From a virus, in IMG/VR virus record IMGVR_UViG_3300050132_000038, positions 1 through 64,000 of that record: DNA of 64,000 bases, one strand, 5' to 3'. The notes under the pieces are model-generated. The model was not told the origin of the DNA. It ran no database searches and saw only the letters and a program-made list of their open reading frames with translations. Positions 4,649 to 50,058 of this stretch are shown here, piece after piece. A program made the translations under genes and the position numbers. How positions within the stretch are numbered: the stretch's first letter is position 1; the number at the start of each line of letters is the position of its first letter.

Positions 4649-4867
4649 TTACTTAGTCTTCTTGGCCTTACGATTGTCTTCTCGCATCTTTTTCATCTTT
4701 TCTTGTAGTTTCTGTAGTCCGTCTCTAGCTGCTACTCCACCTCTACCCATACTGATCAGTTGCTTAGTAGTGGCGATTTTGTTCTGAAGCTGCTTTATCT
4801 CAGTGTCAGAATGTTCCGCTGCAGTAACTTCTGTAAGTCGGGCTGCTGCGTTAAGTTGAATCTTCAT
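4649..4867 (-). CDS. Tagged small coiled-coil protein
   Basis: 72 residues. The tag KIQLNAAARLTEVTAA is followed by one charged helix-rich segment ending in a Lys-rich tail (RKAKKTK). Apart from the tag there is no recognisable domain. The small size and basic tail would suit a DNA-associated internal head protein, but this is inference. Confidence 0.7.
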   Translation of the reverse strand: MKIQLNAAARLTEVTAAEHSDTEIKQLQNKIATTKQLISMGRGGVAARDGLQKLQEKMKKMREDNRKAKKTK

Positions 4868-16726: not shown

Positions 16727-17023
16727 TTAGCCTTCCCACAAAAATTCTAGCTTAGTAGCTGAAGCAGAGCTCTTCAGTGCCAGGCTCCACTCTCCCTCAT
16801 CCCGCGTTAGCTCTGCGTAGGCGTTATCGTACTCCCAACCAGCAGCCTCTAGAGTTTCAATAACCTTTTCTTTAGGTTCATGCACTATAAAAGCATCGTC
16901 CCCTTGGCGGTCTACGGTGAATCCCTTCGAGGTTAGCGTCCGCATAACTTCGTTCTTTATCTTGTTAGGAACTGCTGCACTAACTTCGACAAGACGGGCT
17001 GCAGCATTCAATTGGATTCTCAT
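16727..17023 (-). CDS. Tagged small protein next to prohead protease
   Basis: 98 residues. The tag RIQLNAAARLVEVSAAV is followed by a compact alpha/beta domain (KIKNEVMRTLTSKGFTVDRQGDDAFIVHEPKEKVIETLEAAGWEY) resembling a small ferredoxin-like fold. No catalytic residues recognised. Three bases separate it from the protease gene, so the two are probably co-translated. Confidence 0.7.
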   Translation of the reverse strand: MRIQLNAAARLVEVSAAVPNKIKNEVMRTLTSKGFTVDRQGDDAFIVHEPKEKVIETLEAAGWEYDNAYAELTRDEGEWSLALKSSASATKLEFLWEG

Positions 17024-23833: not shown

Positions 23834-24304
23834 TTACTTAGCAGTGGCAAGCAAACGAGCTGATGCACCCAACTTCAGAGGAGCTAATCCATCGCTATAC
23901 AGCATCTCCTGACTAGCAATACCCGAACCTGTATCACCGACACTCACTCCGTCGTTCAACGTCGTGTCCTGCAGACGTTGAGTTGATGTATCAGAAGCAG
24001 GAGCTCCGTCATTAAGCAGCAGGTCATCAGTTTGAGTAACGTTAGGATCATAGTCACCGTCCAGTACTTGTTGGGCATCGCTGAGACCTACATCACCTTG
24101 CCCGCCACCGATACTTTCTACGTCTACTTCTGCATCGGCCAGCACTTCTTCTGACTCAGCAAGCATGGAGTAGCTGATTGCTTCGAGCGTAGCATGATCT
24201 ACTCCGCAGGCGCCCGCTAGTGCATGGAATTGATCATCAGATGGATCGGGATTAACTTTAAGAAACAGAGCTATAAGCTCTTGGAGTTGCTGTTCATTTT
24301 CCAT
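23834..24304 (-). CDS. Acidic protein with tag-like C-terminus
   Basis: 156 residues, strongly acidic, with Asp/Gly-rich repeats such as LNDGxxxxDT in the C-terminal half. It ends LKLGASARLLATAK, which matches the LNAAxRLLA peptide seen elsewhere at N-termini, here within 14 residues of the C-terminus. That reversal of position is worth noting. No enzymatic domain. Confidence 0.65.
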   Translation of the reverse strand: MENEQQLQELIALFLKVNPDPSDDQFHALAGACGVDHATLEAISYSMLAESEEVLADAEVDVESIGGGQGDVGLSDAQQVLDGDYDPNVTQTDDLLLNDGAPASDTSTQRLQDTTLNDGVSVGDTGSGIASQEMLYSDGLAPLKLGASARLLATAK

Positions 24305-24320
24305 TGTGAATCCTTATTTA

Positions 24321-24575
24321 TTACGTTAGGCCAGGGAACGTAATACCAGCAGGCCGTGTCTTCTTTCCCTTGTACTCTACAAGTTCTGGTAAGCGGTACA
24401 TAGATCGCACACCTCCGCCTACGTCTACCATAGCGACTTCTTCTTTACGCGCTACTTTAATATCGAGTACAGTTCCAATATACTCGTCGGGGTTTCGGGC
24501 TTCTGCTACTTTCATTCCAGGCTGTACCTTTGTAGCAGCTAGTAGTCGAGAGGCCGCATTAAGTTGTATCTGCAT
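24321..24575 (-). CDS. Tagged small beta-barrel-like protein
   Basis: 84 residues. The tag IQLNAASRLLAATKV is followed by a short beta-rich domain (GMKVAEARNPDEYIGTVLDIKVARKEEVAMVDVGGGVRSMYRLPEL) that looks like an SH3/KOW-type fold. Its ATG overlaps the TAA of the HNH gene by one base. Confidence 0.7.
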   Translation of the reverse strand: MQIQLNAASRLLAATKVQPGMKVAEARNPDEYIGTVLDIKVARKEEVAMVDVGGGVRSMYRLPELVEYKGKKTRPAGITFPGLT

Positions 24576-26510: not shown

Positions 26511-28037
26511 TCAGAATAGCTGACCGTAGCCTCTGCCGTATCTACCCCACATGGTAACAGGAGAGATCGTAATACCCACTGCACCGATAGCGCCGTGCTG
26601 TAGCATAGTCGGATCGGTGGAGCCATCGCCCCCCATCACCCCACGCATTACCAAGTTCTGCTTCAACGCCTTCAGCTCATTGTCCAACCTCGACTGAATC
26701 TTAGAGATAGCAGCATCGAACCCTGCTGTACGATCAATGTCCAAGGTAATAGCAGCACCCTGGAACTGGAATGCCTTCTCTGCTTCTGCCGTTACCTGCG
26801 ATTCCAGAGCAAACATCTCAGCGTGCATCAACCAGTATTCACGGATGACCCCTAAGGCATTGGTGAAGCTGAAGTTGGTGAATACCCCGTACGCACCGTT
26901 GAAAGCATCCGCACCCCGACGCAACCAAGTCATGATCGTTTGGTTAGGGTACAGCATGTCAGGAGTACCATACAGCGTAGTGTTCGCCTTGTTGATCTTC
27001 GACCGTACATCAGTAATAGCTGTCATCATAGATGCATTGATAACGAACAGGTCTGCTGATTCCTGGTAGACGAGCGAGGCTTGTGACGAATACCAATACT
27101 TCCAGATCACAGTGTAGGGGACAAGGGATACCATCAACTGCTGGGTGTCGATGACCCCTGCGTAGTACCAACCATTAGCAGTACGTTCTGAGTTACCAAT
27201 AAGGGACGGGGCTGCTACCTGTACACCGCCAGCCCACAATTCGACGGTGACGTTATCGTACAGCTGATCTAGTACAATCGATAGGTTAGCAGGGCTGCCT
27301 TGCAGTTCAACTGTAGACTGCGTGCCCAAAGGTACCGTATTCAACCCTACTACACGGATGTTCTCGTAGGAGAAGAAAGCATTCTGCGATACCTGACCTT
27401 GCAGTGGATCATTTTGCAGGTTCTGTACCTGCGGGAGTTCTAACGTATATCGAAGTTGATACCGTTGGTTATCTAAGCTAGGTGGTACTGTAGAGGGCAC
27501 TGTGATAACTGCGTTAGCTAGGACTGTGTTAGCCAAACCGTTCGACTGTACCAAATAGTTGTAGGCGTTACCTGCTGCGTACACTGTGCCGTCTGAGGCT
27601 AAGAGTTCCCAGGTTACAAAGCCTCCACGTGGGTCAATAGTAGCAGGGAAGCTAAAGATAGCAGTACCAATTGCTGCCATGCCTGCTTGGATTTCATCAA
27701 CCAGGTCGGTGAACGCCTGCGGATTCTGTGTGGCGTACGGTACAAATAATTCATCCTGAACTGTGACTGCTACCTGAGCTGTGAGCACCCGAGCATTAGT
27801 AGTAGCCAGAATCTGGAAGCCGTAAGCAGTACCAGCAATACCACCGGATAACAGGATCTGCGTTACAGGATTAGCACCTGACTGCAAGACTGCTGTGAGC
27901 GGTGGAGCAGTAGTCGGTGTTACCGCAGTCAATACTATGCTGGTGATCGTTTCACCTGGAGCAAGCATAGACGTTAGGTTTGGTGCGACTAATGTATTCT
28001 CTGTGGGCTGTGCAAAATAGACGAATGTATTGTTCAT
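26511..28037 (-). CDS. Large virion structural protein, function unknown
   Basis: 508 residues. Beta-rich N-terminal two thirds with Thr/Val/Ala-rich strands (residues 1-300) and a helical C-terminal third (RSKINKANTTLYGTPDMLYPNQTIMTWLRRGADAFN; QSRLDNELKALKQNLVMRG). The pattern suits a tail- or baseplate-associated protein, but no family is recognised. A diverged copy of its first 91 bases lies upstream at 28569-28659. Confidence 0.65.
   Translation of the reverse strand: MNNTFVYFAQPTENTLVAPNLTSMLAPGETITSIVLTAVTPTTAPPLTAVLQSGANPVTQILLSGGIAGTAYGFQILATTNARVLTAQVAVTVQDELFVPYATQNPQAFTDLVDEIQAGMAAIGTAIFSFPATIDPRGGFVTWELLASDGTVYAAGNAYNYLVQSNGLANTVLANAVITVPSTVPPSLDNQRYQLRYTLELPQVQNLQNDPLQGQVSQNAFFSYENIRVVGLNTVPLGTQSTVELQGSPANLSIVLDQLYDNVTVELWAGGVQVAAPSLIGNSERTANGWYYAGVIDTQQLMVSLVPYTVIWKYWYSSQASLVYQESADLFVINASMMTAITDVRSKINKANTTLYGTPDMLYPNQTIMTWLRRGADAFNGAYGVFTNFSFTNALGVIREYWLMHAEMFALESQVTAEAEKAFQFQGAAITLDIDRTAGFDAAISKIQSRLDNELKALKQNLVMRGVMGGDGSTDPTMLQHGAIGAVGITISPVTMWGRYGRGYGQLF
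27947..28037. repeat. 91-base direct repeat, copy A
   Basis: The first 91 coding bases of the 508-residue structural gene. They are matched by 28569-28659 with about 80 of 91 bases identical, most changes being synonymous. The GNAT-like gene sits exactly between the two copies. Confidence 0.9.
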
Positions 28038-28567
28038 GCTTTCACCTTAAAGTAAAAATTCCCTCTAAGTTTATTTATAGGTTTACCTTTTACAATAGGT
28101 ATTGTATCGGTACCCCAAGAGAAATCCACAGGTACCTGAAGATGATCTAGTAGTTCCACTGAATAGTACTTAGATACGGATCTCCAGGTTCTAACTGCCA
28201 TTATACCTATAATGCTTGAACTTTGAAGTTCACCTAGAACATGAATAGCTGCTAGATATAGTACAAGACCTAAATGTCGTCCCCTGTATTCTTCTTCGAT
28301 AAAAACACTGATAACCATGTTGCCTTTGGCCGTCGTAGACAATATTCCAATTATTCTATCTCTATCTTTTAAGAAAAAGTCACGAGAATAAGTCAACTTC
28401 AGGTAGTATAAGGACAAACCTTCTTTTGTGCCAAGTGGTACAGCAGGCTTAGTTTTCAATCGTTTTTCAAGAAACTCTACGTCTCGATCAAATTCTAGTT
28501 GAGTGTAGTTCTCTCGCATCCTAATAGGCATAGACTCTACGAGCCTAGAGGCTGCATTTAATTGCAT
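28034..28567 (-). CDS. Tagged GNAT-like acetyltransferase
   Basis: 177 residues. Tag MQLNAASRLVES at the N-terminus. The C-terminal part has the GNAT pattern: strand MVISVFIEEEYRGRHLGLVLYLAAIHVL, where the EEYRGRHLG loop is the acetyl-CoA pyrophosphate-binding motif A. Substrate unknown. Its ATG lies inside the truncated duplicate of the neighbour gene, whose CCAGGTGAAACGAC supplies the ribosome-binding site. Its stop overlaps the ATG of the 26511 gene. The coding sequence looks more A/T-rich than its neighbours, in keeping with later acquisition. Confidence 0.7.
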   Translation of the reverse strand: MQLNAASRLVESMPIRMRENYTQLEFDRDVEFLEKRLKTKPAVPLGTKEGLSLYYLKLTYSRDFFLKDRDRIIGILSTTAKGNMVISVFIEEEYRGRHLGLVLYLAAIHVLGELQSSSIIGIMAVRTWRSVSKYYSVELLDHLQVPVDFSWGTDTIPIVKGKPINKLRGNFYFKVKA

Positions 28568-28659
28568 GTCGTTTCACCTGGAGCAAGCATAGGCGTTAGG
28601 TTCGGAGCTACTAATGTGTTTTCTGTTGGCTGTGCGAAGTAGACAAATGTGTTGTTCAT
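28558..28659 (-). pseudogene. Truncated duplicate of the 5' end of the 26511 structural gene
   Basis: Starts MNNTFVYFAQPTENTLVAPN like the 508-residue gene, diverges after GET, and stops at residue 33. It begins at an ATG overlapping the stop of the ADP-ribosyltransferase gene and contains the start of the GNAT-like gene. I read it as the scar of the duplication that accompanied insertion of that gene; the remnant now serves as leader. Confidence 0.85.
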
Positions 28660-29378
28660 TTTTCAATTCCCTTCAGGTACTCTGAAACCTTAAGAGGGGT
28701 ATTAGTCTCTGAGACTACGGCTAGTATGTTGTCTCTGCTAACGTGGGACACACCTGGCCCCTGAACCACTACCTCTTTCTGATCGTGGGAAAATGGATCA
28801 TCCAGGACAGTACGTATGAACTTTTTATCTATATAGAACAGAGCTGACGGTGGCGTATGAATAGCTAATATAATTCCGATCTGTTCTAAAGGTGTATCCC
28901 AGGTGACGTTGGCGTACTTCAATGCAACTTTAGGATCTGAGGTCCAGGATGAAAGAACAGCGGGCTCTACTTTCAACGGCTTGCCGTTTAGGATCTTTGT
29001 CAGCGCGGTCTCAGGGATAAGCAACCCTCGATACACTACCTTCGGTAGTGTACTACGGTAGCTTTCTCTAACGACGTGGAAAGCTTTTAGGGCATCCTGC
29101 ATTTGCGCGGAGGTGAATCTACCAGAACCGCCACTTATCCACTGCTGTATAGTATGTGAAACCCATTCAGGGAGGGGTTCAGCTGCAGCTAACAGCCTGT
29201 GTGCGGCGTTCAGCTTGACGCCTGATACTCCTATAGATGGCTGAACTAACGTGTTGTTAATGCCGTTACCCCAGATGTCAGGATCGCCAATTGATAGTTC
29301 CCCATCTGCTATTGGGGCAGTCTCACCTGTTCTGTGCCTAGGTGCGTGCATTGCTTTTGTCTCTTTCATATTAGCCAT
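28656..29378 (-). CDS. Tagged mono-ADP-ribosyltransferase
   Basis: 240 residues. C-terminal ART fold of the R-S-E class: KVVYRGL (Arg, about residue 113), LSSWTSDPKVALKYA (STS-type motif, about 144) and HDQKEVVV (about 199) as the catalytic QxE/ExE loop. A Gln two residues before the Glu would favour asparagine-type targets as in C3 toxins; tentative. The shared tag VKLNAAHRLLAAAE is at about residue 53 behind an unusual 50-residue leader, with no start codon available nearer. T4 Alt, a head-packaged ART injected with DNA, is the obvious functional parallel. Confidence 0.8.
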   Translation of the reverse strand: MANMKETKAMHAPRHRTGETAPIADGELSIGDPDIWGNGINNTLVQPSIGVSGVKLNAAHRLLAAAEPLPEWVSHTIQQWISGGSGRFTSAQMQDALKAFHVVRESYRSTLPKVVYRGLLIPETALTKILNGKPLKVEPAVLSSWTSDPKVALKYANVTWDTPLEQIGIILAIHTPPSALFYIDKKFIRTVLDDPFSHDQKEVVVQGPGVSHVSRDNILAVVSETNTPLKVSEYLKGIEK

Positions 29379-29704
29379 AGTACAGACCTTCCTGGCGCTG
29401 TCGTCAGTAGGCGGATAGTCTGTCCCTTCTGTTTCAATTGAACTGTAGTGCCCGCACAGTACATACCACCGTTGACCTGCCGAGGTTCATCTGAGATCCA
29501 TCGAGCTAACGCCAAGGCCATGACGATACGGGGGCTTTCCTCGTACACTAGCAGGGAATTATTTGCGTCATCTGGTGACTCCGCTTCGATACCATAGTTC
29601 GCTAGTAGTTCAATCAGGTGGGTACTCAACATGGCTTGCTCCTCTATAAGGGACGCTACTAGTCGGTGTGCAGCTTTCATATTAATCTCTCTAGTGTTAG
29701 CCAC
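29366..29704 (-). CDS. Tagged small protein, function unknown
   Basis: 112 residues. Tag variant INMKAAHRLVASLI begins at residue 7, then a helical segment and a small beta-rich domain (TTVQLKQKGQTIRLLTTAPGRSVLWLI). Overlaps the start of the ADP-ribosyltransferase gene by 13 bases, implying coupled translation. No family recognised. Confidence 0.65.
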   Translation of the reverse strand: MANTREINMKAAHRLVASLIEEQAMLSTHLIELLANYGIEAESPDDANNSLLVYEESPRIVMALALARWISDEPRQVNGGMYCAGTTVQLKQKGQTIRLLTTAPGRSVLWLI

Positions 29705-29710
29705 TATGCG

Positions 29711-29980
29711 TTAGCCTCGGTCGGTTATGCGAGCCTTGTTACCCTCTTTGGCTACGTGGCACTTGTGCTCACCTTTACTAAACTCACCGGAGCCTGTTGA
29801 CGTCCACCCATCGCTTTTCAACTTGGAGACTACCTCAGAGAGTGTGGCGTCTACCGTGACATAGTTAGCACCCTCTGGGCGATCGTAGGTGAACTGGAGG
29901 CTGTTGATCCAGCCTTCAAAAGGGTCAGCGTGGACCTCGTACATAGAAAGTAATCGAGAAGCAGCATTGAGTTTAAACAT
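29711..29980 (-). CDS. Tagged small protein, function unknown
   Basis: 89 residues. FKLNAASRLLSMYE tag, then a small alpha/beta domain (YVTVDATLSEVVSKLKSDGWTSTGSGEFSKGEHKCHVAKEGNKARITDRG) similar in outline to the domain in the 16727 gene: two strands, a helix ending DGW/AGW, and a closing strand. Possibly paralogous; no function. Confidence 0.65.
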   Translation of the reverse strand: MFKLNAASRLLSMYEVHADPFEGWINSLQFTYDRPEGANYVTVDATLSEVVSKLKSDGWTSTGSGEFSKGEHKCHVAKEGNKARITDRG

Positions 29981-30021: not shown

Positions 30022-31419
30022 CTAGAGCCACAGCTTCTCTTTACCTGTCGGCTGCTCAGCTTTGGTTTCAGGAGCTTCGGAAGGCTTACTTTCTTCTCCG
30101 ATGCCACTGTTCAGAATCAAAAGAACTTTTCGGAGTTGGGCGTTATTTAATCCAAACTTCTGGCCTAGGAATTCAGCATCGTGCACTGAGACCTCTCTAC
30201 CCTTCGCTACGTTGGTCACTGTGAATTCAATTTGCGTGCTAGAGGGCTTCATTCGAATCTTAGCAGTGCGTGAGCTCTTAAACAACCCCTTTACTTCCTG
30301 GTACAGGGCATACGCAACTTCCTTGGCTTGCTCAGGCTCAACACCTTTACGCAGCTTGAACACTAGCTTATCTTCATCTACATCCAGCTTCTGAATGAAA
30401 TCCTTGTAGCTAAACATCTCTGGCTTCAACTCGTTCAGGGGTTTCCGCAGTTGCGTGGACAACGGCACAGTACCGAGCGAGGAGCTGAAGTCTTCTAGAG
30501 CTAAGAGATCAGAGATAGCTTTAACTGCCTCGCCTGCTGAGCCAACCGATTCACCTCCCTCTTTCAGCAGTTGACCCGGGAGTTCGTACTCTGGGTTAAT
30601 CTGAATCGTAGTAGACTCACCAACAACCCATTGCACTGAGATGTACAGGCTAGGCGTTACCTTACCTTCATCGTTAGTAGCGTTAATCAGCATCAGGTAG
30701 TAGGTGAAAACGATCTGGCCTTCAGCAGAAGTCGATACGTAGAGGAACAGATTGGAGTCCTCAAACATAACGTGCTCTTGCACTTCCTGACGAATAACGT
30801 CGATGTACTTCTCGAAGGTCTTCGGCACATGCTTGGCTGCCACTTCATTTAGGAAGCCTAAGACCGTTTTCAACTGCTTAGCAACCTTACCTTTCAACTC
30901 ATGGAGTGCAGCTATAGTAGCTGTATACGCTTCACCACGACGATCCGGGAACTGCATAGAGAGTTGAGCTTCCACTGCTTCTAGGGTACGATGTTTCTCG
31001 TATAGGTCCTCAGAGAGAGAGTACTGCTCTTCCAGCTTCTTAACGTTAGGGACCACCACCTTAGTAAGTTCTGGATCAATCTTACGCTTGAGTCGTGATT
31101 TATTTGACCCACCTTCACCTTCTTTGATGGTGAGTTCCATCTCAGCAGCCTTAACTAGAGTAGCACCAACCCACTCCTTTGGCTTCTTTAGGAAGGCCAA
31201 CTGAGTTTGGTGTACCTTAATAACCTTCTCGTTCTCGTCGATCTCTTCCTTCATAGTATCTAGGAAGCGAGTGACGTCATCGATGTAACGAAACTTCGGT
31301 AGTTCGATCGCGTGGACACGAGTTCGGGCTACTGTTTTGTTCTTAGCTGTTGCTGACTTCTTCGTGGCAGTAATACCCGAGGAAGCGCGGAGGCGAGCGG
31401 CTGCATTAGTCTTGACCAT
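30022..31419 (-). CDS. Tagged large protein with helical N-half
   Basis: 465 residues. Tag VKTNAAARLRASSG, then a basic Lys/Thr-rich linker, a long charged helical region (residues about 45-210; coiled coil likely), and a beta-containing C-terminal part with KTAKIRMKPSSTQIEFTVTNVAKGREVSVHD-like strands. Ends with an acidic/Pro tail. No enzymatic motif seen. AAGGA precedes the start. Confidence 0.7.
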   Translation of the reverse strand: MVKTNAAARLRASSGITATKKSATAKNKTVARTRVHAIELPKFRYIDDVTRFLDTMKEEIDENEKVIKVHQTQLAFLKKPKEWVGATLVKAAEMELTIKEGEGGSNKSRLKRKIDPELTKVVVPNVKKLEEQYSLSEDLYEKHRTLEAVEAQLSMQFPDRRGEAYTATIAALHELKGKVAKQLKTVLGFLNEVAAKHVPKTFEKYIDVIRQEVQEHVMFEDSNLFLYVSTSAEGQIVFTYYLMLINATNDEGKVTPSLYISVQWVVGESTTIQINPEYELPGQLLKEGGESVGSAGEAVKAISDLLALEDFSSSLGTVPLSTQLRKPLNELKPEMFSYKDFIQKLDVDEDKLVFKLRKGVEPEQAKEVAYALYQEVKGLFKSSRTAKIRMKPSSTQIEFTVTNVAKGREVSVHDAEFLGQKFGLNNAQLRKVLLILNSGIGEESKPSEAPETKAEQPTGKEKLWL

Positions 31420-33170: not shown

Positions 33171-33740
33171 CTAATCAAAGTGGGTAAGTCTGTACGCCGC
33201 GCTCATCTTCAGAGGGTCGACGCCATTCTTCTTCGCGTTTTCTATTCTGGAGATTTCCATCTCAACTGAGCGCATCGACTGTGGATCAGCTAGCAATGAT
33301 TCTAGCCCAGGGTGTAGGGGATCAGGCCACTCATTATACGGCACCCATACGTTACCTGCGGTTTCCTCAGCGAATTCAGGTGGAGAATTAATCTCGAATT
33401 GCTTAGGAATGACTACGAGATTGTTAGCGTACTGAAATCCGCGGTCTGCATCATAGTACGTCATGAGAGGGAATATCTTCATCTCACCTGTGTATCCTGT
33501 TTCCTCTCTAAGTTCCCGTTTGAGTGCGGTGAACGTTTCCTCGTTACCGTCGATAGAACCTCCCCAACAACCGTACGTGTTTGGCGTATCCGAAGTAGTG
33601 CTACGGAGTTGGAAACTGAAGTTCAGTGTGTCTGCAGCTAGGAGTAGGCAACCAACCGCGTAGTGGTACCCCCTCACCCCAGGGACCCATTCTTCACCAT
33701 CTTTGTGTGCTAGTAGTCGTGTAGCTGCATTTAGTTTCAT
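33171..33740 (-). CDS. Tagged Nudix hydrolase
   Basis: 189 residues. The N-terminal tag is KLNAATRLLAHKD. The Nudix box is GGSIDGNEETFTALKRELREETGY, with the catalytic REL-x-EE present, so hydrolysis of a nucleoside diphosphate derivative such as ADP-ribose or NADH is likely. A second tag-like peptide, LKMSAAYRLTHFD, forms the extreme C-terminus. Neighbouring genes encode a kinase-like protein and homospermidine synthase, all tagged. Confidence 0.85.
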   Translation of the reverse strand: MKLNAATRLLAHKDGEEWVPGVRGYHYAVGCLLLAADTLNFSFQLRSTTSDTPNTYGCWGGSIDGNEETFTALKRELREETGYTGEMKIFPLMTYYDADRGFQYANNLVVIPKQFEINSPPEFAEETAGNVWVPYNEWPDPLHPGLESLLADPQSMRSVEMEISRIENAKKNGVDPLKMSAAYRLTHFD

Positions 33741-33749
33741 TGTCAGGTC

Positions 33750-34373
33750 CTAAGAAGTCGGGTCCACTATGACAACCTGCCTTCCGCGCATCATGAAGTT
33801 GTCCTTGTGGATGTCCGGGTAGCCATCACCAGTGTTGTACTCAGCTACAAGCCACTCGGCGAATTGTTTTAGATTCGGATCTAAGGGTGCGCCACGCGAA
33901 GTCTTTATCTCACATAGGCGGGTCCACAGCGGACTAACCTTAGACTGGTATACCGAGAGGTTTTTCTGGTGCGGTACAAAGCATATAGTCTCCAGTCCAT
34001 AGATGAACTTCTTGAACTGGGCTTCTGACATAGGAGTCAGTTTCTCCATGAAGACCACGTGAAGTCCTGTCTTATCTGAGTTCCAAATGTGGCCTTTGTA
34101 CTTCGGATCAGGATCCAGACCGTGTTCGTCGTGGTGCTCGCCCTTGATCTTCAATAGATACGGATTGTGGGGATTAGCCTGACAGAACTTCGTATACGAT
34201 TCGAACGCAGGGTCGTGAGTGAACACCTTCACCATCGTCGTCGGATCTGTTAGATGCTGAAAGACAAAGGCGTGAGAGCCCTTTGCTACAGGCTCTATAC
34301 CTTGTGACTTCAAGTCCTTCAGATACTCTGTCAAGGTGACTGCGATTAACCTAGTAGCTGCGTTTAACTTCAT
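33750..34373 (-). CDS. Tagged protein-kinase-like phosphotransferase
   Basis: 207 residues. Behind the tag KLNAATRLIAVTL is a reduced kinase fold: glycine-loop-like KGSHAFVFQH, a lysine in TMVKVFTHD, hinge-like VVFMEKL, catalytic loop DIHKDNFMM and metal-binding VIVDPTS at the C-terminus. All key residues appear in order, but the domain is short and ends right after the DFG-equivalent. It could phosphorylate a host protein or small molecule. Confidence 0.7.
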   Translation of the reverse strand: MKLNAATRLIAVTLTEYLKDLKSQGIEPVAKGSHAFVFQHLTDPTTMVKVFTHDPAFESYTKFCQANPHNPYLLKIKGEHHDEHGLDPDPKYKGHIWNSDKTGLHVVFMEKLTPMSEAQFKKFIYGLETICFVPHQKNLSVYQSKVSPLWTRLCEIKTSRGAPLDPNLKQFAEWLVAEYNTGDGYPDIHKDNFMMRGRQVVIVDPTS

Positions 34374-34376
34374 TTT

Positions 34377-35792
34377 CTATTTCCCTACTAAAAAGTTTGT
34401 GAAAGCCCATTCGTTATCTTCATCGAAATCCTTCTTGTACAGGTGCCCTCTGTTATCCAAGGGACTCCAATCTGAATAGTAAGCCACCATAGGACCAAGG
34501 TAGGGTTTAGCTATTGACAGCACAAAGTCGAAGGGTAAGTCTTCTGGCTCACAATAACCCATTCTCGGATTCTCTAACGTCCATACTATAGCCCCTAGCA
34601 GTGAGGCACATACCTGCACAGTAGTTGCATTCTGACCAGGAACTAACGATCGAGCTTCCTCTATATCTAATTGAGAGCCATACCACAGCGCATTCTTACC
34701 ATGACCTAGGAGCAACACCCCTAGTTCATCGATACCACTTAGTATGGAGTTCTTAGCAATCCTAGTATTACGGTGCATCCACAATTCTTGTCCACGCATC
34801 TCATGGATTGAGGCCAATGCTGCATCTGTCGGCTGATACGCATAGTACACTGTAGGTCTATAGGAATCAGTGGATAGATACTCACTGATCGTTACTGCCT
34901 CTGAGTGCTGGATTAGGAATCCGTTATACGTACCACCAAGAGGCACCCAGGACTTCACGAGGGTGGCTACTCCGGGAGTGTCGAGATACGCTGAATTCCC
35001 CTGCACAGTTAAGCCACCAACCTCTTGCGGTTCGTGCGACCCCCAACCTAGTTCAGCAGGTGCTCTACCCTCAGCCCAGAAGCCTTCGCAGCTCCAGGTG
35101 TTAACGAATTCATGTACGCGCTTAGGAACCTTCAGTATCTGTGTATCGCGTTCTGCTATTTGAATCACCTTAGTATCAGTGGCCTCGGCTAGAGCTGCCC
35201 AACCCATTTGGTTCTGTGGAACCTCAGTAGATAATCCGGTATCCTTAGCAATCTTGAGTAATGCAGCTTTTGTGAAATGCGATACTAGCCCAGGGTTAGC
35301 CCCGTGCGTTACTACACAGGTAGCATGACCTGGGTACTTGGAAGCCATCTCCCTAATCTCTTGATGCTCTGTGTACAAAGTACGTTCTGCTAGATCGGGT
35401 ATTGTCTCGTCGGGTGAGGTAGCCCAACGCTCAATGGACGTGTCGATGTACATAACGTTATGGGATAGGCACCACTCTACAATAGCTATTCCATCGATGT
35501 TCAAGCTTAGGTTGACGAGGTAATCACCTTCAGCTAGTAAGGACTCAAGAGTAGAGCCCATGTTGTCTTCTACTATCTCACGCACTACGTAGTGAATGCC
35601 TGTGTAGGGAGCGAATTCAGGGCGCTCTACCTTATCCAAAACAGTTATCTTGGAGGGATTCAGATCTATGTGGCGGAGGAGCATTGGTAACATCGTCTGC
35701 CCTACAGCACCAAAGCCCAAGAGTAAGAGGCGACCATCGTGTGTTGCTAACTTTTGACTAGCTAGTAGTCTGGAGGCTGCGTTAATCTTCAT
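34377..35792 (-). CDS. Tagged homospermidine synthase
   Basis: 471 residues, close to the bacterial enzyme length. The N-terminal tag KINAASRLLASQK is followed by the NAD-binding Rossmann loop LLLLGFGAVGQTMLP, then family segments MYIDTSIERWA, VTHGANPGLVSHFTKAAL and GWGSHEPQEVGG, and the C-terminal GPMVAYYSDWSPLDNRGHLY. The family makes homospermidine from putrescine using NAD. In a virion, a polyamine enzyme could help neutralise packaged or newly injected DNA, or redirect host polyamines; inferred. Confidence 0.85.
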   Translation of the reverse strand: MKINAASRLLASQKLATHDGRLLLLGFGAVGQTMLPMLLRHIDLNPSKITVLDKVERPEFAPYTGIHYVVREIVEDNMGSTLESLLAEGDYLVNLSLNIDGIAIVEWCLSHNVMYIDTSIERWATSPDETIPDLAERTLYTEHQEIREMASKYPGHATCVVTHGANPGLVSHFTKAALLKIAKDTGLSTEVPQNQMGWAALAEATDTKVIQIAERDTQILKVPKRVHEFVNTWSCEGFWAEGRAPAELGWGSHEPQEVGGLTVQGNSAYLDTPGVATLVKSWVPLGGTYNGFLIQHSEAVTISEYLSTDSYRPTVYYAYQPTDAALASIHEMRGQELWMHRNTRIAKNSILSGIDELGVLLLGHGKNALWYGSQLDIEEARSLVPGQNATTVQVCASLLGAIVWTLENPRMGYCEPEDLPFDFVLSIAKPYLGPMVAYYSDWSPLDNRGHLYKKDFDEDNEWAFTNFLVGK

Positions 35793-35878
35793 CTCGTAGC
35801 TCTCATTGAAAATGGTAGAATCAATGAGGCTAGGTGGGCTGTACTTCTACCCGGTGTACGGCCCACGTTCAGGCTAGA

Positions 35879-36031
35879 TTACTCGTCGCCTTGTTCCTGC
35901 TCTTGTCCAGGTTGCTCCTGTTCCTGCTCCTGACCATTCTCCTCAGGTTCACCTGGACCTTGTTGCTGTTGCTGGTTCTGCTCTTGAGTCGTACTCTGAC
36001 TCACGTTTTGACTTACATTAACCTTAGTCAT
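35879..36031 (-). CDS. Gln/Glu-rich low-complexity protein
   Basis: 50 residues from ATG 36031 (MTKVNVSQNV), chosen because GTGAGGCAGTC precedes it. Almost entirely Q, E, P and G, with repeated GQEQEQ units. Disordered; function unknown. Confidence 0.55.
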   Translation of the reverse strand: MTKVNVSQNVSQSTTQEQNQQQQQGPGEPEENGQEQEQEQPGQEQEQGDE

Positions 36032-36094
36032 GACTGCCTCACATTTGAAGTTAGGTGGGGTTAGCACCGGATTCAATACAGCTAGTCAGTGCTA

Positions 36095-36307
36095 CTACTT
36101 ACCCAGTAAGCGACGGGCCGCGCTAACCTCTACGTCATCCAAGACAGAGGCGTCCCTCCGGTTTTGGTAAATGTAGTTAGTCAAAGCCCACTTGTTATCA
36201 GGATGCGATTTCTCAGCGTCCTTCTTAGACTTCTCCCAGTCCTTCTCCAATTTCTTCTTAGTACCACGCCCTTCACGGACATCTTTATTGATTAATGCGT
36301 TAGGCAC
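36095..36307 (-). CDS. Small basic protein with C-terminal tag
   Basis: 70 residues starting at GTG (AGGAG upstream). Lys-rich helical N-terminal half, a KSHPDNKWALTNYIYQ segment resembling the HP-SK motif, and a C-terminal EVSAARRLLGK that matches the shared tag. It is the clearest case of the tag at a C-terminus. Confidence 0.65.
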   Translation of the reverse strand: MPNALINKDVREGRGTKKKLEKDWEKSKKDAEKSHPDNKWALTNYIYQNRRDASVLDDVEVSAARRLLGK

Positions 36308-36344
36308 TTTGATTCTCCTAGTAGCTGAAAATCAATACTGCTAG

Positions 36345-36848
36345 TTATACACGTTTAAGTTGGTGAACACTGAATACTCCGTAGGTAGGAATATCGTCGT
36401 TCACTCCTTCCTTGCCTTCTACAGAGTTAAACCCAGCAGCCTTGAGGATCCTAACTAGCTCAGGTAGTTGCATGTACCACTCCCACACATGCTTATAACC
36501 GGAACCCTTTACCTCTGCTAGTTCGTCCATGAGCTCCATACCCTTTTCTCTAGTGATGTGACCCTCCTGGAATTGCGAGAGTATGCCACGCTTCACCCGA
36601 TCGGTTACATCCTTCAGCTGAACTTCCGTTTGTAGCGTTCGGAAACCAAAGTCGAAGCTATGCCCTATGTCAGCATGAAATTCTAGTACGTGCTGTTCAT
36701 CCTTTGCATACTCTAAGGCGTAGTCTCGATCAGGAGTAATGAAGATGATGTGCTGGTTCTTTGCGTGTTCATCCGACCAGGTTTGAGTTAGGCCTCGGTA
36801 GAAGATTTGACTAGCTAGTAGCCTGTGTGCTGCGTTTAGTTTCATCAT
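36345..36848 (-). CDS. Tagged ADP-ribosyltransferase-like protein
   Basis: 167 residues. Tag MKLNAAHRLLASQ. The following IFYRGLTQTW, HIIFITPDRDYALEYAKD and the closing YGVFSVHQLKRV match the outline of compact ART-fold proteins found in phage polyvalent proteins: an Arg strand, a TPDxxYAxxYA helix, and a final VF-[DS]-x2-Q-[IL]-K strand. The third catalytic residue cannot be fixed by eye. If real, the window encodes two tagged ADP-ribosyltransferases. Confidence 0.55.
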   Translation of the reverse strand: MMKLNAAHRLLASQIFYRGLTQTWSDEHAKNQHIIFITPDRDYALEYAKDEQHVLEFHADIGHSFDFGFRTLQTEVQLKDVTDRVKRGILSQFQEGHITREKGMELMDELAEVKGSGYKHVWEWYMQLPELVRILKAAGFNSVEGKEGVNDDIPTYGVFSVHQLKRV

Positions 36849-37780
36849 ACTTCTTCCTTTAGAGCTTTGCTCACTACAGCATCCTCTAATCCTTGCCCTA
36901 TGGATTCTACAAAGTGGCGGAGAACGCTGCCCTCCGGAACTTTCCTTTTACGAATGGCGTTGAGCGCGCTAGTTAAAGCTAGGCTGCCAGCACCAGCAAC
37001 AAGGTGTGCGGCAAACCCACCAGGTAGTGCCGCTATACTCATGCCTAATGCCATCTTCCCTAGGCCCTTGATTGCTTTCTTCTGCTCAGCACTCAACTCT
37101 GTACCCTCACTCAGTGCTACAAGTCCTGTGGTGGCCTGCTTTACCCTAGGGAAGGACCGGTCTAGTACCTTAGCTATGTGTGAGGCCTTAGACTTAATGT
37201 GCTGAGCAATGGCACCCTTCTTAGGTGGTGTCGATACCTCTTCATCAGGTACATCGGCTTTCTCTATACCCTCGGCCACGGAGTCCACGAACACTTCGAG
37301 GTCGTCCTTACCATTGGAATTCTCTTTGTTCTTTTTGAAGTGTTCCGTAGCGTATTTCACTGCGTGAACACCTACGTGACCAGCAGTATGAATAAGGTGT
37401 GCCTGTTCCTTACCTACTGCGAACTTCAATGCTGATTTCAGGACTGTATCCCCGAGCTCCATGAGAACATCCCGATGGTCCTCAGTTAGCTTCTTCCCTG
37501 TGGCAAGATGCTTTAGGGCTGCGGTAGCTCCGGATAACAGTGGGAATGAATCTCGGAGTAGCCTCGCTATCTTAGGGCCGTGGGTTCTTAGGACACCTGC
37601 AGACGCCTTACGGGGCTCAGGTGTATCCTTAGCCTCGGGTTCTTTCGAGTCTTCCTTTATGGAATCCTTAGCATACTTGGAGCCTGGATGATCCTTGATG
37701 TATTGCTTCTTCTGGTCGGCATCAAGAGCTTCCCACCAATCCTCCGAAGCTAACAGTCGATGCGCCGCGTTTAGTTTCAT
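36845..37780 (-). CDS. Tagged internally duplicated helical protein (paralogue of the next gene)
   Basis: 311 residues. Tag KLNAAHRLLASED, WWEALDADQKKQYIKDHPGSKYA motif, then two related helical repeats. The first starts APKIARLLRDSFPLL and contains ALKHLATGKKLTEDHRDVL; the second starts ASHIAKVLDRSFPRV and contains VALSEGTELSAEQKKAI, followed by a Gly/Ala-rich hydrophobic stretch (SIAALPGGFAAHLVAGAGSLALTSAL) that could insert in or pore a membrane. Overlaps the start of the 36345 gene and ends within the paralogue's frame by 4 bases. Confidence 0.75.
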   Translation of the reverse strand: MKLNAAHRLLASEDWWEALDADQKKQYIKDHPGSKYAKDSIKEDSKEPEAKDTPEPRKASAGVLRTHGPKIARLLRDSFPLLSGATAALKHLATGKKLTEDHRDVLMELGDTVLKSALKFAVGKEQAHLIHTAGHVGVHAVKYATEHFKKNKENSNGKDDLEVFVDSVAEGIEKADVPDEEVSTPPKKGAIAQHIKSKASHIAKVLDRSFPRVKQATTGLVALSEGTELSAEQKKAIKGLGKMALGMSIAALPGGFAAHLVAGAGSLALTSALNAIRKRKVPEGSVLRHFVESIGQGLEDAVVSKALKEEV

Positions 37781-38808
37781 CCTTCCCCCTCACCACCAGC
37801 AGTGTGCTCAAGCAAGGCATCTTCCAAGCCTTCGCCAATCGACTCTACGAAGTGGTGGATGATGTGTCCATCTTTGAACTTACCACTCTGTATTAGTTTG
37901 AATGCGTGGGTGATTGCTACTGAGCCAACCCCTGCTGCTAAGTGGGCAGCCAGTCCACCAGGTAGTGCGGCGATACTTAAGCCCAAAGTAATCTTACCCA
38001 GGCTCTTCATTGCGGTTTTCTGTTCATCCGAAAGCTTCTGTCCTTCGCTTAGGGCAACCAAACCTTGGGTAGCAGGCTTGATATGCTGGAAGGACTTATC
38101 CAGCACCTGTGTAATGTGGTGTGCTTTACTCCTGATGTGCCGACCGATAGCAGAACGGTAGCTACTCTTAGGTGCAGCATGCTCTTTAGGAACCGGGGCT
38201 TCCTTAGCTTGCTCTACACCATCGGCTAAAGCCTCGACGAAGACCTCAACGTCATCCTTACCCTCGGACTGTTCCTTCTTCTCTTTGAAGTGTTCCACTG
38301 CGTGGTTAACTGCGGTAATACCAATACGGCCGAGTACCTGAGCACCATGAACACCAACAACAGAGCTAAGAGTAGCTTTGAGGGCTACACCACCGAGGTC
38401 GTATAGTGCTTCCTTGTGGTTTTCCTCTAGGGCCTTACCGGTGGCTAAATGCTTTAGGGCTGAGGTAGCTTCATGGATTAGCGGAAATGTCTTCTTAAGG
38501 AAGCTGGCAATCTTAGGGGCATGTTTACGAATGCCACCTGCAATCTTCTTACGGTGCTCTGGATTAATCTGCGACTTAGCCGCAGGCTCTGTACCCAACT
38601 CCTCTTCATCCTTCTTGGATTTCGATTCCTCGTTAGAGCCCTCTCGAATAGCGTCCTCTGCGTACTTCGAGTGGGGGTGTTCCTCTATGTACTCCTTCTT
38701 CTGGTCGGGCTCTAGATGTTGCCACCACTCACTGGCTGCTGGAGCCTTTGCCTGAGTAATAGTGGATGCTACCAATCGTGCTGCTGCGTTTAGTTTGAAT
38801 TGTTTCAT
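37777..38808 (-). CDS. Tagged internally duplicated helical protein (paralogue)
   Basis: 343 residues, same architecture as the 36845 gene: tag KLNAAARLVAST, EWWQHLEPDQKKEYIEEHPHSKYA motif, an acidic/Lys linker, repeat 1 (APKIASFLKKTFPLI...ALKHLATGKALEENHKEAL), and repeat 2 (AHHITQVLDKSFQHI...VALSEGQKLSDEQKTAM) with hydrophobic SIAALPGGLAAHLAAGVGS. The two genes arose by tandem duplication. Possible membrane-active ejection proteins; this is inference. Confidence 0.75.
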   Translation of the reverse strand: MKQFKLNAAARLVASTITQAKAPAASEWWQHLEPDQKKEYIEEHPHSKYAEDAIREGSNEESKSKKDEEELGTEPAAKSQINPEHRKKIAGGIRKHAPKIASFLKKTFPLIHEATSALKHLATGKALEENHKEALYDLGGVALKATLSSVVGVHGAQVLGRIGITAVNHAVEHFKEKKEQSEGKDDVEVFVEALADGVEQAKEAPVPKEHAAPKSSYRSAIGRHIRSKAHHITQVLDKSFQHIKPATQGLVALSEGQKLSDEQKTAMKSLGKITLGLSIAALPGGLAAHLAAGVGSVAITHAFKLIQSGKFKDGHIIHHFVESIGEGLEDALLEHTAGGEGEG

Positions 38809-38810
38809 GT

Positions 38811-40472
38811 TTAATCCTTCACCTCTGTGTCGTGTTTTTCAAGGAAGCGAGGAATGCGAAAGCCTAACTGCCGGAAGAACATGATCTGTATGCTTGGGTC
38901 CACGTAGTTGGCTAGTGCTGTTGTGCCCGTGACTTTAGTTCCACCGCTAGCCATTGTTCTAATATGGTTTAGCAACTTACCGACCTGCTCGCCCATCTTC
39001 GTTAGCATAGCGAGTGCAGCACGCTCGTCCTTGGGAGGCTTCTCCATAGCCTTCTCCATAAGCTCAGAGAACAGATGAGTACCTCGCAGGGTCCGAAGCT
39101 TGTGCACAGTTGTTCCTGCAGGGGCACCTAGCTCTTTGAAGTAAGCGTTAGCGTCCTTGGCATTAACCGGGACTTTACGAGCGCTTTTGTCCACGGTGAA
39201 CACTCGGTCCTTAGGCTGCTTGCCCGCTAACAGTTGGAGTAAGGCTTTGATAACAAACTTCTGTGTAGGATCAGACGCTACCAACTTATGCACGGTCTTG
39301 ATGGAGTCCTTACCAAGGTAGCGAATAGTGATGTTACCTGAAGCATGGTCTACAGCCATATGTTTTACCAGCAGGGTGGATACACCGAACGTCGCTTCAC
39401 CTGGAGTACCAACACGGGCTGCAAACTCATACAGGATCTCTAAGATGGTGGCGGCTACACATTCAGCATCAGTAATCTTGAATTGTTTAACCTTGGAGAA
39501 CCAGGCTTTCTGCATCGACAAGATCTTGGGTGCGAGGTCAGCGACGTGCTGGAACTTTGCCTTAGCTGCTTCCTTCTTGTACTCCGAAGTGTAGAAGTAG
39601 GGACCAGGGCCGCCATCGCTACGTATAGCCTGAAACACAAAATCCTTACCACCCTCTTTCCCGAACTGCTTGTTCATTATCATGGTAGGGAACATAATAG
39701 CCGAGGGGACACCGTCGATCATCTTACCAGTGTTGGTGTATAGCCTACCCAGGTCGTCAACCTCGCCTGTGAATCCAACAGGAAGCATGTGCTCAATACC
39801 ATTGGCGTGTAGGTAGGCCAAGAGCTCCTCGTAGGGAACTGTGTCATGTCCGGATTTACGCACATAGGATACTACGGCATCCTTCCACACCTGGTTGTGC
39901 TCCTTGCGGTATGCTTGGTACTGTGCGTACTCTTCTGGGTGAGTTTCCTTAACCTGTTTGGCTTCATCTATAGTAAGTGCGGTGTCGTCACGGCCGACCA
40001 TCTCGAACACTAGCTTGCGGAGCGTGTCACTCTTCTGTTGACCTTGTTTGGGAGCAAACCGAGAGCTAACGAAAGGACTATGAACTATACCTGCCATCTT
40101 CTGAATCTTGGAGAGCGCGGCTTCACTATCGGTACGGAGGTACAGGCCGAGGGCTTTCAGTACGTCGATCTCCTGAGAGGTGAATGACTTCTCCGCACGA
40201 TACGTCTCGAACATCTCCTTGATCTCAGTACCAAGGAGTACCAACTGTTCTGCTTTACCCGTGCCGGCAAGGGCTGCCTGGATGGACGGAAGGAGGGAAG
40301 GAAGTTGCTTTCCCCACTTAGCGATGATTGCTTTAGGAATGCTTTTTAGTTCTTGGGCAGTTTCCTTGTCCGGTTTGCTCTCCGGCCCGTTGCTAACGTA
40401 GTCAACAATTAAAACAAAAAGAGGTTGGAGGAGGTTCAGAAGCTCTGAGGCTGTGATTAATGTTTGGTCCAT
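38811..40472 (-). CDS. Type IB DNA topoisomerase-like protein
   Basis: 553 residues from ATG 40472 (MDQTLITASELL), chosen for the AGGAAC upstream; a longer frame lacks a site. The C-terminal catalytic domain has the tyrosine-recombinase/topo IB set: EFAARVGTPGEA (first Arg), a Lys-containing hairpin near GNITIRYLGKDSI, THKLRTLRGTHLF-type motif (second Arg), and LANYVDPSIQ (nucleophilic Tyr, about residue 518). It would relax supercoils during replication or after DNA entry. The untagged N-terminus begins with an amphipathic helix vaguely like the tag. Confidence 0.8.
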   Translation of the reverse strand: MDQTLITASELLNLLQPLFVLIVDYVSNGPESKPDKETAQELKSIPKAIIAKWGKQLPSLLPSIQAALAGTGKAEQLVLLGTEIKEMFETYRAEKSFTSQEIDVLKALGLYLRTDSEAALSKIQKMAGIVHSPFVSSRFAPKQGQQKSDTLRKLVFEMVGRDDTALTIDEAKQVKETHPEEYAQYQAYRKEHNQVWKDAVVSYVRKSGHDTVPYEELLAYLHANGIEHMLPVGFTGEVDDLGRLYTNTGKMIDGVPSAIMFPTMIMNKQFGKEGGKDFVFQAIRSDGGPGPYFYTSEYKKEAAKAKFQHVADLAPKILSMQKAWFSKVKQFKITDAECVAATILEILYEFAARVGTPGEATFGVSTLLVKHMAVDHASGNITIRYLGKDSIKTVHKLVASDPTQKFVIKALLQLLAGKQPKDRVFTVDKSARKVPVNAKDANAYFKELGAPAGTTVHKLRTLRGTHLFSELMEKAMEKPPKDERAALAMLTKMGEQVGKLLNHIRTMASGGTKVTGTTALANYVDPSIQIMFFRQLGFRIPRFLEKHDTEVKD

Positions 40473-40527
40473 TCTATTGTTCCTAAAGAAGCGATGTTTA
40501 GAATGAAATTGCGGGCGTAACGCAAAA

Positions 40528-40561
40528 GAGGGCACGTATTCCGCTAAGAATACGTGCCCTC
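40528..40561 (-). terminator. Intrinsic terminator upstream of topoisomerase gene
   Basis: Minus-strand stem GAGGGCACGTATT / AATACGTGCCCTC (13 pairs, 8-base loop) followed by TTTTGCG, between the stop of the 40585 gene and the topoisomerase gene. Confidence 0.85.
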
Positions 40562-47479: not shown

Positions 47480-48880
47480 TTACAGGTTGCTGTTTGAACG
47501 TACTTGTGCGAACGTCATGTCACGGAACATCTGATCGCTACCTAAGGTATTCTTATACACAGGTTCCAGATAGTTGTGATAGGCTACCACACTAGCCTCG
47601 ACTGCAGAAGTCATGATACCCATGTCGTTTGCGTACACCATCTGCCTACCCTTCTTTGAAGCCTTGGCCCTAGAGGTAGCTGGATTCTTAGCAATGCCAG
47701 TCCAACCAGACAATCCATTGGTTACTGCAGATGCCTTGTGTGCATACCCGAGCGTATCACGATTGATACCTTGAAGGAGGGCGCCGCCCATGCCGAATGC
47801 GACGTTCTCGATCGAGAACTTGTTGAGTTCCAATGCCGTGCAAATTGCATTGATAGATGTACGATTCACACCATCGCCTTGAATCACCCGCACTGCTGGG
47901 TGCAACACTGAATAACCTTTACTGTTGGTCGTGTAACCATACGAATTTGCCAGGGAGCGAACAGTGTACATAACTTCCGATACGGGATCACCAGAGTCCG
48001 GACGAATCACAACACGGCCACCTTTCTCCAACACTCGGTCTTTCAGCTGCTTGCCCCAGATGTTGTCTACTGCGTTATGCAGGTCGTAAGCATCTGATAC
48101 GCACGCATAAATCTTGCCCTCACCACCAAAGTTTTCAATCATATTGGCGTAGGCATCAGCCTCGAACTCTTGACCCCAGGAGCAAACAGTGAAGTGCTCC
48201 ATCGCAGGGATTGAATAACCTGCTAATGGTTCCTCGTAGAATTGAGCTGCGGCTTCGATACCGCCCATCGTATCGCTGCCCATGAAGTTAACCAAGTGTG
48301 CCATTGCCCCTAGGCTTGCTGTCTCTTCTGACGATGCACCGCGAGCACCAAAGTCATGCAAGCGGAACCCCAACTCTGCCTTTGGACTATCGCAGGTCTT
48401 CTCTAGCCATTTGCGAAGATCTTGCTTGATGTGCCAGCTCAGGGTTGCCACAGTCGATGGATACCAGAGCGCACGCAGCAAGGAGGTTTCAACGAATTGC
48501 CCAATCCAAGGAATCGAAGGATCGGTGGACATTACCTGATACAGGGGGACACGGTTCGGGACGACCAAGCCTTCGGGCAGAGCTTGCAGGCTAATAGGAG
48601 GCAGCCCTTTGTGGATTTCGACAATTCGCATGAACTCAGCGTAGGGGAAGTACCCACTGTGGCGAAGTGCAGTAGCCTGGGCGTACTTAACTTGCTCCCT
48701 GGTCAACGGGTTACTTCGAATCTTCCGCAGCCATGCTTGAAGCCCAAACACCATGCTCTTCTTGAAGACTTCATCCGACCGTGCTTCTGCGTAGCTGCTA
48801 ACGTTACGCAAGGACTTAGGGAGCTGCAGGTAGTGGGAGTATTTATATGAATCGGTATCGAGTGCGAAATTATAGGTCAT
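47480..48880 (-). CDS. nadV: Nicotinamide phosphoribosyltransferase
   Basis: 466 residues, full family length. Converts nicotinamide and PRPP to NMN in the first step of NAD salvage. Conserved segments are DTDSYKYSHYLQLP, RLHDFGARGASSEETA (substrate-binding), VIRPDSGDP (phosphate-binding), and RVIQGDGVNRTS near residue 350. The adenylyltransferase gene lies just upstream, giving a two-gene nicotinamide-to-NAD pathway. Such pairs occur in several large phages and have been linked to NAD restoration after NAD-depleting defence systems. The terminator downstream closes the unit. Confidence 0.93.
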   Translation of the reverse strand: MTYNFALDTDSYKYSHYLQLPKSLRNVSSYAEARSDEVFKKSMVFGLQAWLRKIRSNPLTREQVKYAQATALRHSGYFPYAEFMRIVEIHKGLPPISLQALPEGLVVPNRVPLYQVMSTDPSIPWIGQFVETSLLRALWYPSTVATLSWHIKQDLRKWLEKTCDSPKAELGFRLHDFGARGASSEETASLGAMAHLVNFMGSDTMGGIEAAAQFYEEPLAGYSIPAMEHFTVCSWGQEFEADAYANMIENFGGEGKIYACVSDAYDLHNAVDNIWGKQLKDRVLEKGGRVVIRPDSGDPVSEVMYTVRSLANSYGYTTNSKGYSVLHPAVRVIQGDGVNRTSINAICTALELNKFSIENVAFGMGGALLQGINRDTLGYAHKASAVTNGLSGWTGIAKNPATSRAKASKKGRQMVYANDMGIMTSAVEASVVAYHNYLEPVYKNTLGSDQMFRDMTFAQVRSNSNL

Positions 48881-48951
48881 GGCAAATCTCCTTTGCTTTA
48901 AATGGATTCCTCGGACTCACTGCCCGAGGTTTGGTGCTACAGGATATATTG

Positions 48952-50058
48952 TTAGTCCACGGGTAGCATATTAATCATTTTGTGGATAATCCAGTAATGG
49001 TCACTATAGAGCTCCTGCGGGTTCAGCAACCCCAGAGGGAACCAACGAGCTTCCGCTGCGTCATCCCCTGCTTCTACTTCTGGCAATGTTGGGCGATCAT
49101 TTAACAGATACAGATACGCATGAGTGATAATGCGCCCTCGTTCGTCTGAACGATTCGGATCAGAGAACACATGCTTGAATCTGAAAGACAGATCAATGAT
49201 CTCCCGTGACAATCCAATCTTCGTCTCCTCTCGTGCTTCACGAGCTGAACTATCAGCCAGCTTCTCGAACTCGTTAGTGAATCCACCAGGGAGCGCCCAC
49301 AGCCCTTTACCTGGATTCATCCCTCGCTTGATAAGCAGTACGTGATTCGATTGAATGAACACGGAATCGGTAGTCGTGTGCGTCGCATTGTACGGCTTGC
49401 CCCTGCCGTCTTTGCCAACGTACTTGTGCTCTAGCTTATACTGTGCTGCGAAGTCCCGCGATTCAACTAACCCATTCACAATGTCTGCGTTGTTCTCAAG
49501 CCAGCTCTCAAGGTACGGAACAACAGGAGCGGGTACTTGCATCTTCCATCCCTTATGTCCGTCCAGCATATTATTGCGAATGTCCGTGGCGCTAAGGATA
49601 ACGCCATCCTCCTTGTAGGCACCCACGTCCACCGAACCCCACTGCGGAAACTTCTTCAAGTAGTACGAGGTATGATCCTTAGAGAAACCAACAAGGCCGA
49701 CCTTAACCTCAGCCTCCCTAACCCCACTCAGAGCTTCTACAGCGTTTACACCCTTGGCAACCTTACGCTGAGCTTCCATGCACCAGTGAAAATCGTTGTC
49801 GTGCATGTAATCGTTCAGGCTATCTACTAACAGCGAATCGTCAGTAAGTTCCTGCCTAAAGGTTTTAAGTAGCATCAGCGCAACCTCATCAGCCGTCCAT
49901 GGATTCTTTACCGTGCGAGGACGATTGGCTGAACCCACTAGAACCAGAACGTGACGAGCACGCTTCAATGCCTCGCGGATTACAAACTCATGCCCCCTGT
50001 GTAACGGGCGGAAGCGACCGATGAATACCAACAAATCATATTCGTATTGCATTTGCAA
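48952..50058 (-). CDS. nadM: Bifunctional NMN adenylyltransferase/Nudix hydrolase
   Basis: 368 residues. N-terminal nucleotidyltransferase: FIGRFRPLHRGHEFVI (HxGH) and ILSATDIRNNM (ISSTxxR-type). C-terminal Nudix domain has GGFTNEFEKLADSSAREAREETKIGL. It makes NAD from NMN and ATP; the Nudix half likely clears ADP-ribose or damaged NAD. Domain order and length match the bacterial bifunctional family. With the gene downstream it completes nicotinamide-to-NAD conversion. Confidence 0.93.
   Translation of the reverse strand: MQMQYEYDLLVFIGRFRPLHRGHEFVIREALKRARHVLVLVGSANRPRTVKNPWTADEVALMLLKTFRQELTDDSLLVDSLNDYMHDNDFHWCMEAQRKVAKGVNAVEALSGVREAEVKVGLVGFSKDHTSYYLKKFPQWGSVDVGAYKEDGVILSATDIRNNMLDGHKGWKMQVPAPVVPYLESWLENNADIVNGLVESRDFAAQYKLEHKYVGKDGRGKPYNATHTTTDSVFIQSNHVLLIKRGMNPGKGLWALPGGFTNEFEKLADSSAREAREETKIGLSREIIDLSFRFKHVFSDPNRSDERGRIITHAYLYLLNDRPTLPEVEAGDDAAEARWFPLGLLNPQELYSDHYWIIHKMINMLPVD

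Follow-up and report, generated by a model that had tools for sequence, protein, structure and literature searches.

Capsid targeting sequences of 10-20 residues bring the internal proteins of phage T4, together with Alt, into the prohead, and both ends of Alt undergo processing (PMC5694885). The ejection proteins of the jumbo phages SPN3US and phiKZ are likewise internal proteins that have an N-terminal targeting region, and two paralogs have an identical N-terminal stretch (PMC5694885). In homospermidine synthase (HSS), NAD is bound as a prosthetic group, and Asn162, Glu210, Trp229, Glu237, His296, Glu298, Tyr323 and Asp361 (BvHSS numbering) have been named for its catalysis or substrate binding (PMC4725965). 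Phage HSS has already been published for Ralstonia phage RSL1 and Achromobacter phage Motura, and that of RSL1 was reported to be functional (PMC9992855). In that study, the HSS of Harvovirus was expressed in E. coli BL21 delta-speD.

The HSS described here was encoded by a jumbo myovirus with a 219-kb genome (a 218,861-base record, which may be incomplete, with 352 called genes). The window is the whole stretch of 64,000 nucleotides that was analysed from this record. The major head protein (10682-11770; phrog_2522, E 1.6e-91) had 75% identity to those of the Burkholderia phages BcepSauron and BcepSaruman and 60% identity to that of Motura. The HSS gene, the tagged genes and the head genes given with coordinates here lie on the minus strand.

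The gene at 34377-35792 had an ATG start and encoded a protein of 471 residues beginning MKINAASRLLASQKLATHDGRLLLLGFGAVGQ. The Pfam domains Sacchrp_dh_NADP (PF03435) and Sacchrp_dh_C (PF16653) were matched well above cut-off and spanned the full length. Among solved structures, the best sequence matches, which started only at residue 19, were to homospermidine synthases (2ph5, E 1e-114). The AlphaFold model, which was built from 24 phage sequences, had a mean pLDDT of 86 and a pTM of 0.89, whereas residues 1-8 were below 50 and disordered. In the Foldseek comparison, the TM value was 0.92 for the HSS of Blastochloris viridis (4xq9), whereas it was only about 0.6 for carboxyspermidine dehydrogenase. 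The identity to the Blastochloris enzyme (4xq9, 4plp) was 44%, and the eight named residues were all identical in the phage protein and invariant among 25 phage HSS sequences. Two of the other pocket residues that were checked differed, with the 'ionic slide' Asp94 being Asn and Tyr123 being Pro in the phage; a further difference from the Blastochloris enzyme was the terminal tag of the phage protein. Because the structure matches began at residue 19, residues 1-8 had low pLDDT and the TM value was 0.92, the identity of the enzyme is secure, and its first residues are not part of the fold. Hence, the claim of the initial annotation that a full-length enzyme is encoded here was confirmed: the product is a complete homospermidine synthase with an intact active site, and it should be enzymatically active. 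Since NAD is held as a prosthetic group, the enzyme needs only putrescine and no free cofactor. Ornithine decarboxylase, AdoMet decarboxylase and glutathionylspermidine synthase were not found in the 218,861-base record; therefore, the HSS does not belong to a polyamine pathway encoded by the phage, and the putrescine would be that of the host. When bacterial genomes were searched for close relatives of HSS, only two contigs were obtained. As a separate observation on cofactor genes, 47480-50058 holds an NAD salvage pair, namely a nicotinamide phosphoribosyltransferase and a nucleotidyltransferase-NUDIX fusion.

The first 11 codons of the HSS gene (35760-35792) spelled the tag MKINAASRLLA, which covers the disordered residues 1-8 of the model and lies outside the region matching solved HSS. 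The consensus of the tag in this phage was K-[LI]-N-A-A-x-R-L-x-A. Copies were counted as A-x-x-R-L-x-(A,E,S,T,G,N,V) within 12 residues of the start codon over the 352 called genes. By this rule, 21 genes carried an N-terminal copy, as compared with about 0.8 expected from the motif frequency elsewhere (Poisson p ~1e-22); one of the 21 is probably spurious, which leaves about 20 unrelated proteins. The sharing of the tag that had been noticed from the sequence is thus real. The invariant A, A, R and L of the motif were spelled by 4, 4, 6 and 6 different codons, respectively, in 22 N-terminal copies, which indicates that the tag is conserved as a peptide and not as DNA. Besides N-termini, copies occurred at some C-termini and at joints between fused domains, and these positions ruled out a translation-start signal. 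No earlier description of such a tag was found in the literature searched, which took in few subscription papers (the original RSL1 description lay outside it).

The HSS gene was one of eight consecutive minus-strand genes (33171-38808). Seven of these were tagged, and the sole untagged member was a small reading frame at 35879-36076. A NUDIX hydrolase (33171-33740; Pfam) was tagged at both ends, with MKLNAATRLLA at the start and a C-terminal copy, KMSAAYRLTHFD. The protein-kinase-like gene (33750-34373; phrog_15752, E 3e-6), located 3 bases downstream of HSS, started with MKLNAATRLIA, and its ortholog in L175 carried MKIEAAQRLVA. A 70-residue protein (36095-36307) bore the tag at its end (..VSAARRLLGK), and relatives fuse the same domain via the tag to a second domain. 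The product of 36345-36848, in which the tag MMKLNAAHRLLAS is followed by FYRGL.., is a possible ADP-ribosyltransferase by motif resemblance only; it had no Pfam match, and its single-sequence model was poor (pLDDT 42). The tagged proteins at 36845-37780 and 37777-38808 contained an HPGSKYA and an HPHSKYA module, respectively. A strong terminator-like hairpin was located at 40528-40561, upstream of the tagged run. The gene directly upstream of the run (38811-40535) was of the Topoisomerase IB type, and its real start is probably further in because the listed GTG start overlaps the hairpin.

Most tagged genes were found at 3.4-38.8 kb, amid the genes for the major head protein, the head maturation protease, the head-tail connector and the tube and sheath of the tail. 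In the first part of this block, tags were present at 3438-3788 (MKIQLNAAARLME), 4649-4867 (MKIQLNAAARLTE), 4950-5558 (MIKLQAASRLLA, with an HPDSKYA module) and, between the tail tube and the sheath, 6117-6977 (MFKLNAASRLLAS). A tagged 98-residue protein (16727-17023; MRIQLNAAARLVE) was encoded immediately upstream of the head protease. The 156-residue product of 23834-24304 was tagged at the C-terminus, as were its orthologs in two relatives, and 24321-24575 began with MQIQLNAASRLLA. Four further N-terminal tags were those of 28034-28567 (MQLNAASRLVE; weak GNAT match in Pfam), 29366-29704 (MKAAHRLVAS), 29711-29980 (MFKLNAASRLLS) and 30022-31419 (MVKTNAAARLRAS; the G001 ortholog is tagged too), and the protein at 28656-29378 held an internal copy, VKLNAAHRLLA. 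Since head and tail genes lie within the block, the tagged genes are probably expressed late.

Several additional features of these proteins were observed. A second module, W..L...Q+.Y+..HP.SK(Y/L)A, followed the tag in five proteins (those at 3438, 4950, 36845 and 37777, and L136 17966-18457); it was absent from the untagged genes of this genome, and two copies were seen in BcepSaruman gp075. The small domain KD...GKGS...LEKKW...YAL.NYIY (36095-36307; L100 4640; L102 17484; L152 624) was joined by the tag to differing partner domains across phages, and a domain similar to that of 36095-36307 was fused to a NUDIX-like region in Motura. The sequences directly after the tag, LYHGTT in Motura (L077 880-1419) and FYRGL in 36345-36848, resembled the starts of ADP-ribosyltransferase domains, and the Motura protein had a weak Arr-ms match only. 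T4 packages an ADP-ribosyltransferase, Alt. At the edge of the record (2-3375, minus strand), three adjacent genes encoded a molybdopterin/FAD/[2Fe-2S] enzyme of the aldehyde- or xanthine-dehydrogenase type; they adjoin tagged and tail genes and look unusual for a phage.

Taken together, it is probable that HSS is virion cargo, which a lineage-specific terminal tag directs into the head for delivery to the host. HSS would be made alongside the late head and tail proteins, and the terminal tag would load it into the head, probably by docking to one phage-specific prohead receptor such as the core, scaffold or protease. The enzyme would then be ejected together with the DNA and convert host putrescine to homospermidine at the start of infection, for which no other phage enzyme would be needed; this would presumably benefit the phage. 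The initial annotation had described the tag as packaging-type. Its sharing by many unrelated proteins, mostly of the head/tail block, fits a packaging signal with a precedent in T4, and to this extent the description was supported; packaging itself is what we infer. The literature yielded no virion proteome for any tagged phage, and PaBG, the sole relative found with virion mass spectrometry (PMC7412058), is untagged; hence, its proteomics data were set aside as direct support for packaging.

The tag shares with the T4 capsid targeting sequence the form of a short terminal peptide on unrelated proteins encoded near head genes, effector-like enzymes included. A head maturation protease, which a T4-type system implies, was present in the genome (15905-16723; phrog_18299, E 6e-90) and is a candidate partner of the tag. 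The T4-type targeting sequence has the pattern F/Y..F..E, whereas no N-terminus in this genome had such a motif. The tag also differed in occurring at C-termini and domain joints, and the position matching the T4-type Glu was Ala in 14 of 22 tags (HSS included) and Glu in 5 of 22, so that the tags do not generally end in a Glu-type cleavage site. Because of the different sequence, the placement at either end and the mostly missing Glu, the tag can be likened to the T4 system but is not a member of it. The likeness to the ejection proteins of SPN3US and phiKZ has a similar bound, as their propeptides are mostly longer than 100 residues and are cut at A-x-E (PMC5694885).

These observations bear on whether the tag primarily serves the head maturation protease as a site of recognition or cleavage, in which case HSS would be trimmed in the prohead and mature HSS would be tagless. 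Tags at N-termini, at C-termini and between fused domains are consistent with such a site, as are the T4-like L-x-E ending in five of the 22 tags and in the G001 HSS (RLLE) and the processing of T4 Alt at both ends (PMC5694885). However, Ala replaces Glu in most tags, that of this HSS included. This role of the tag is therefore a tentative possibility, and its likelihood is not to be added to that of HSS being delivered as cargo because the two overlap.

The tags of related phages suggested a receptor that differs between phages. Degenerate forms were present on several proteins of BcepSaruman, Motura and RSL1, and the tag was absent from PaBG, AD1 and NCTB in the stretches examined. The residue before the first Ala was Asn in 16 of 25 tags of this phage, Glu in 14 of 16 in contig G020 and Gln in 7 of 10 in Motura. 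Uniform versions were thus found in the relatives, KIEA.. in one phage and IQA.. in Motura. None of 20,000 permutations reached the observed sorting of tags by phage, and the few likely chance matches included in the counts work against this result. Moreover, the kinase-like and FYRGL proteins bore LNA tags in this phage, whereas their orthologs in G020 bore IEA tags. Such a pattern is to be expected from a single tag receptor in each phage, since the tag is uniform within a phage and differs between phages, and a receptor of this kind is accordingly proposed.

The distribution of HSS among phages was also considered. Polyamine enzymes had been called uncommon in phages, which is only partly right: relatives of HSS were encoded on 55 viral contigs in IMG/VR, most without such a tag, and phage HSS has been published (PMC9992855). 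Tagged HSS was found in this phage, in G001/G004/G005 (69% identity; MKVQIHAAQRLLE) and in G002 (65%; MIKTQAAWRLLA), and the orthologs in these two other phages kept the tag and differed in the linkers. In the tree, the three tagged lineages formed one clade with the RSL1 HSS as sister (97/98). The HSS of RSL1 belongs to the same family, has an intact active site and is located between the same topoisomerase/NUDIX genes and connector gene; it starts MDKVGNIQLDGF and is untagged, and the NUDIX gene beside it, an ortholog of the one at 33171-33740, starts MKINSAFRLLV. The HSS of Motura, which has the same intact active site, is distant, untagged and encoded near a glutathionylspermidine synthase gene. 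Unlike this phage, both RSL1 and Motura encode glutathionylspermidine synthase. The absence of the tag from the RSL1 HSS, despite its sister position and similar gene neighbourhood, and from the Motura HSS speaks against packaging of HSS and indicates that phage HSS does not generally need to be packaged.

HSS could instead work in the infected cell as an ordinary auxiliary metabolic enzyme, with the tag serving, for example, assembly-site recruitment or protection from proteolysis. The untagged enzymes of RSL1 and Motura, the mostly untagged HSS relatives on viral contigs and the reported function of the RSL1 enzyme (PMC9992855) agree with such a role. On the other hand, the tag is common mainly to head/tail-block genes and effector-like proteins, and the HSS gene lies in a late-type block without companion polyamine enzymes, so that this explanation appears unlikely. 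Tags of other kinds were also looked for. In a contig-wide comparison of other phage lineages, the sharing of the HSS N-terminus with further proteins of its contig did not exceed chance; hence, there is no cross-lineage support for HSS being usually packaged. Lineage-specific HSS tags that looked T4-like by eye (FKxF, MKLxEI) gave no excess in this comparison and were rejected. On contigs G008, G010, G019 and L174, M[KR]LxEI N-termini, with HSS among them, were moderately enriched for a motif chosen post hoc, and they are possibly a second, unrelated HSS tag in another phage lineage.

Packaged HSS might instead, as suggested in the initial annotation, act inside the head during maturation and alter the polyamines that neutralise packaged DNA. 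With putrescine as its only requirement besides bound NAD (PMC4725965), the enzyme could work in a closed space. However, the putrescine supply in a filled head would presumably be limited, and other tagged proteins, such as the kinase-like protein and the NUDIX hydrolase, look host-directed; action in the head is therefore rather improbable. As the tagged set includes these two and possible ADP-ribosyltransferases, delivery into the host is likelier than action in the head, and since the putrescine would be the host's, polyamine supply just after entry is more likely than synthesis in the filled head. Most likely, HSS would act on host putrescine just after entry. A functionless module of DNA that recombination has carried from one gene start to another, which would agree with homology restricted to gene ends and with tags on unrelated genes, was rejected as hardly credible on the variety of the codons for the invariant residues, and C-terminal copies also stand at the same place in divergent relatives.

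The wider proposal, which could about equally well hold or fail, is that a clade of jumbo phages comprising this phage, BcepSaruman, Motura, RSL1 and relatives loads ten to twenty or more proteins, a complete polyamine enzyme included, into its heads by an unreported lineage-specific terminal tag. Neither a packaged polyamine enzyme nor a tag on phage HSS was reported in the literature searched, in which few subscription papers were covered. If delivery occurs, HSS would be the first polyamine enzyme known to us that a phage delivers in its virion. The tag would constitute a cargo-loading code separate from that of T4 and a readable list of the proteins that these giant phages inject at the start of infection, and it would provide a short peptide that can be tested for loading cargo into heads. 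Furthermore, the phage would bring a polyamine-making enzyme with its DNA rather than await gene expression, and the question of why phages need polyamines would become directly testable at the entry step.
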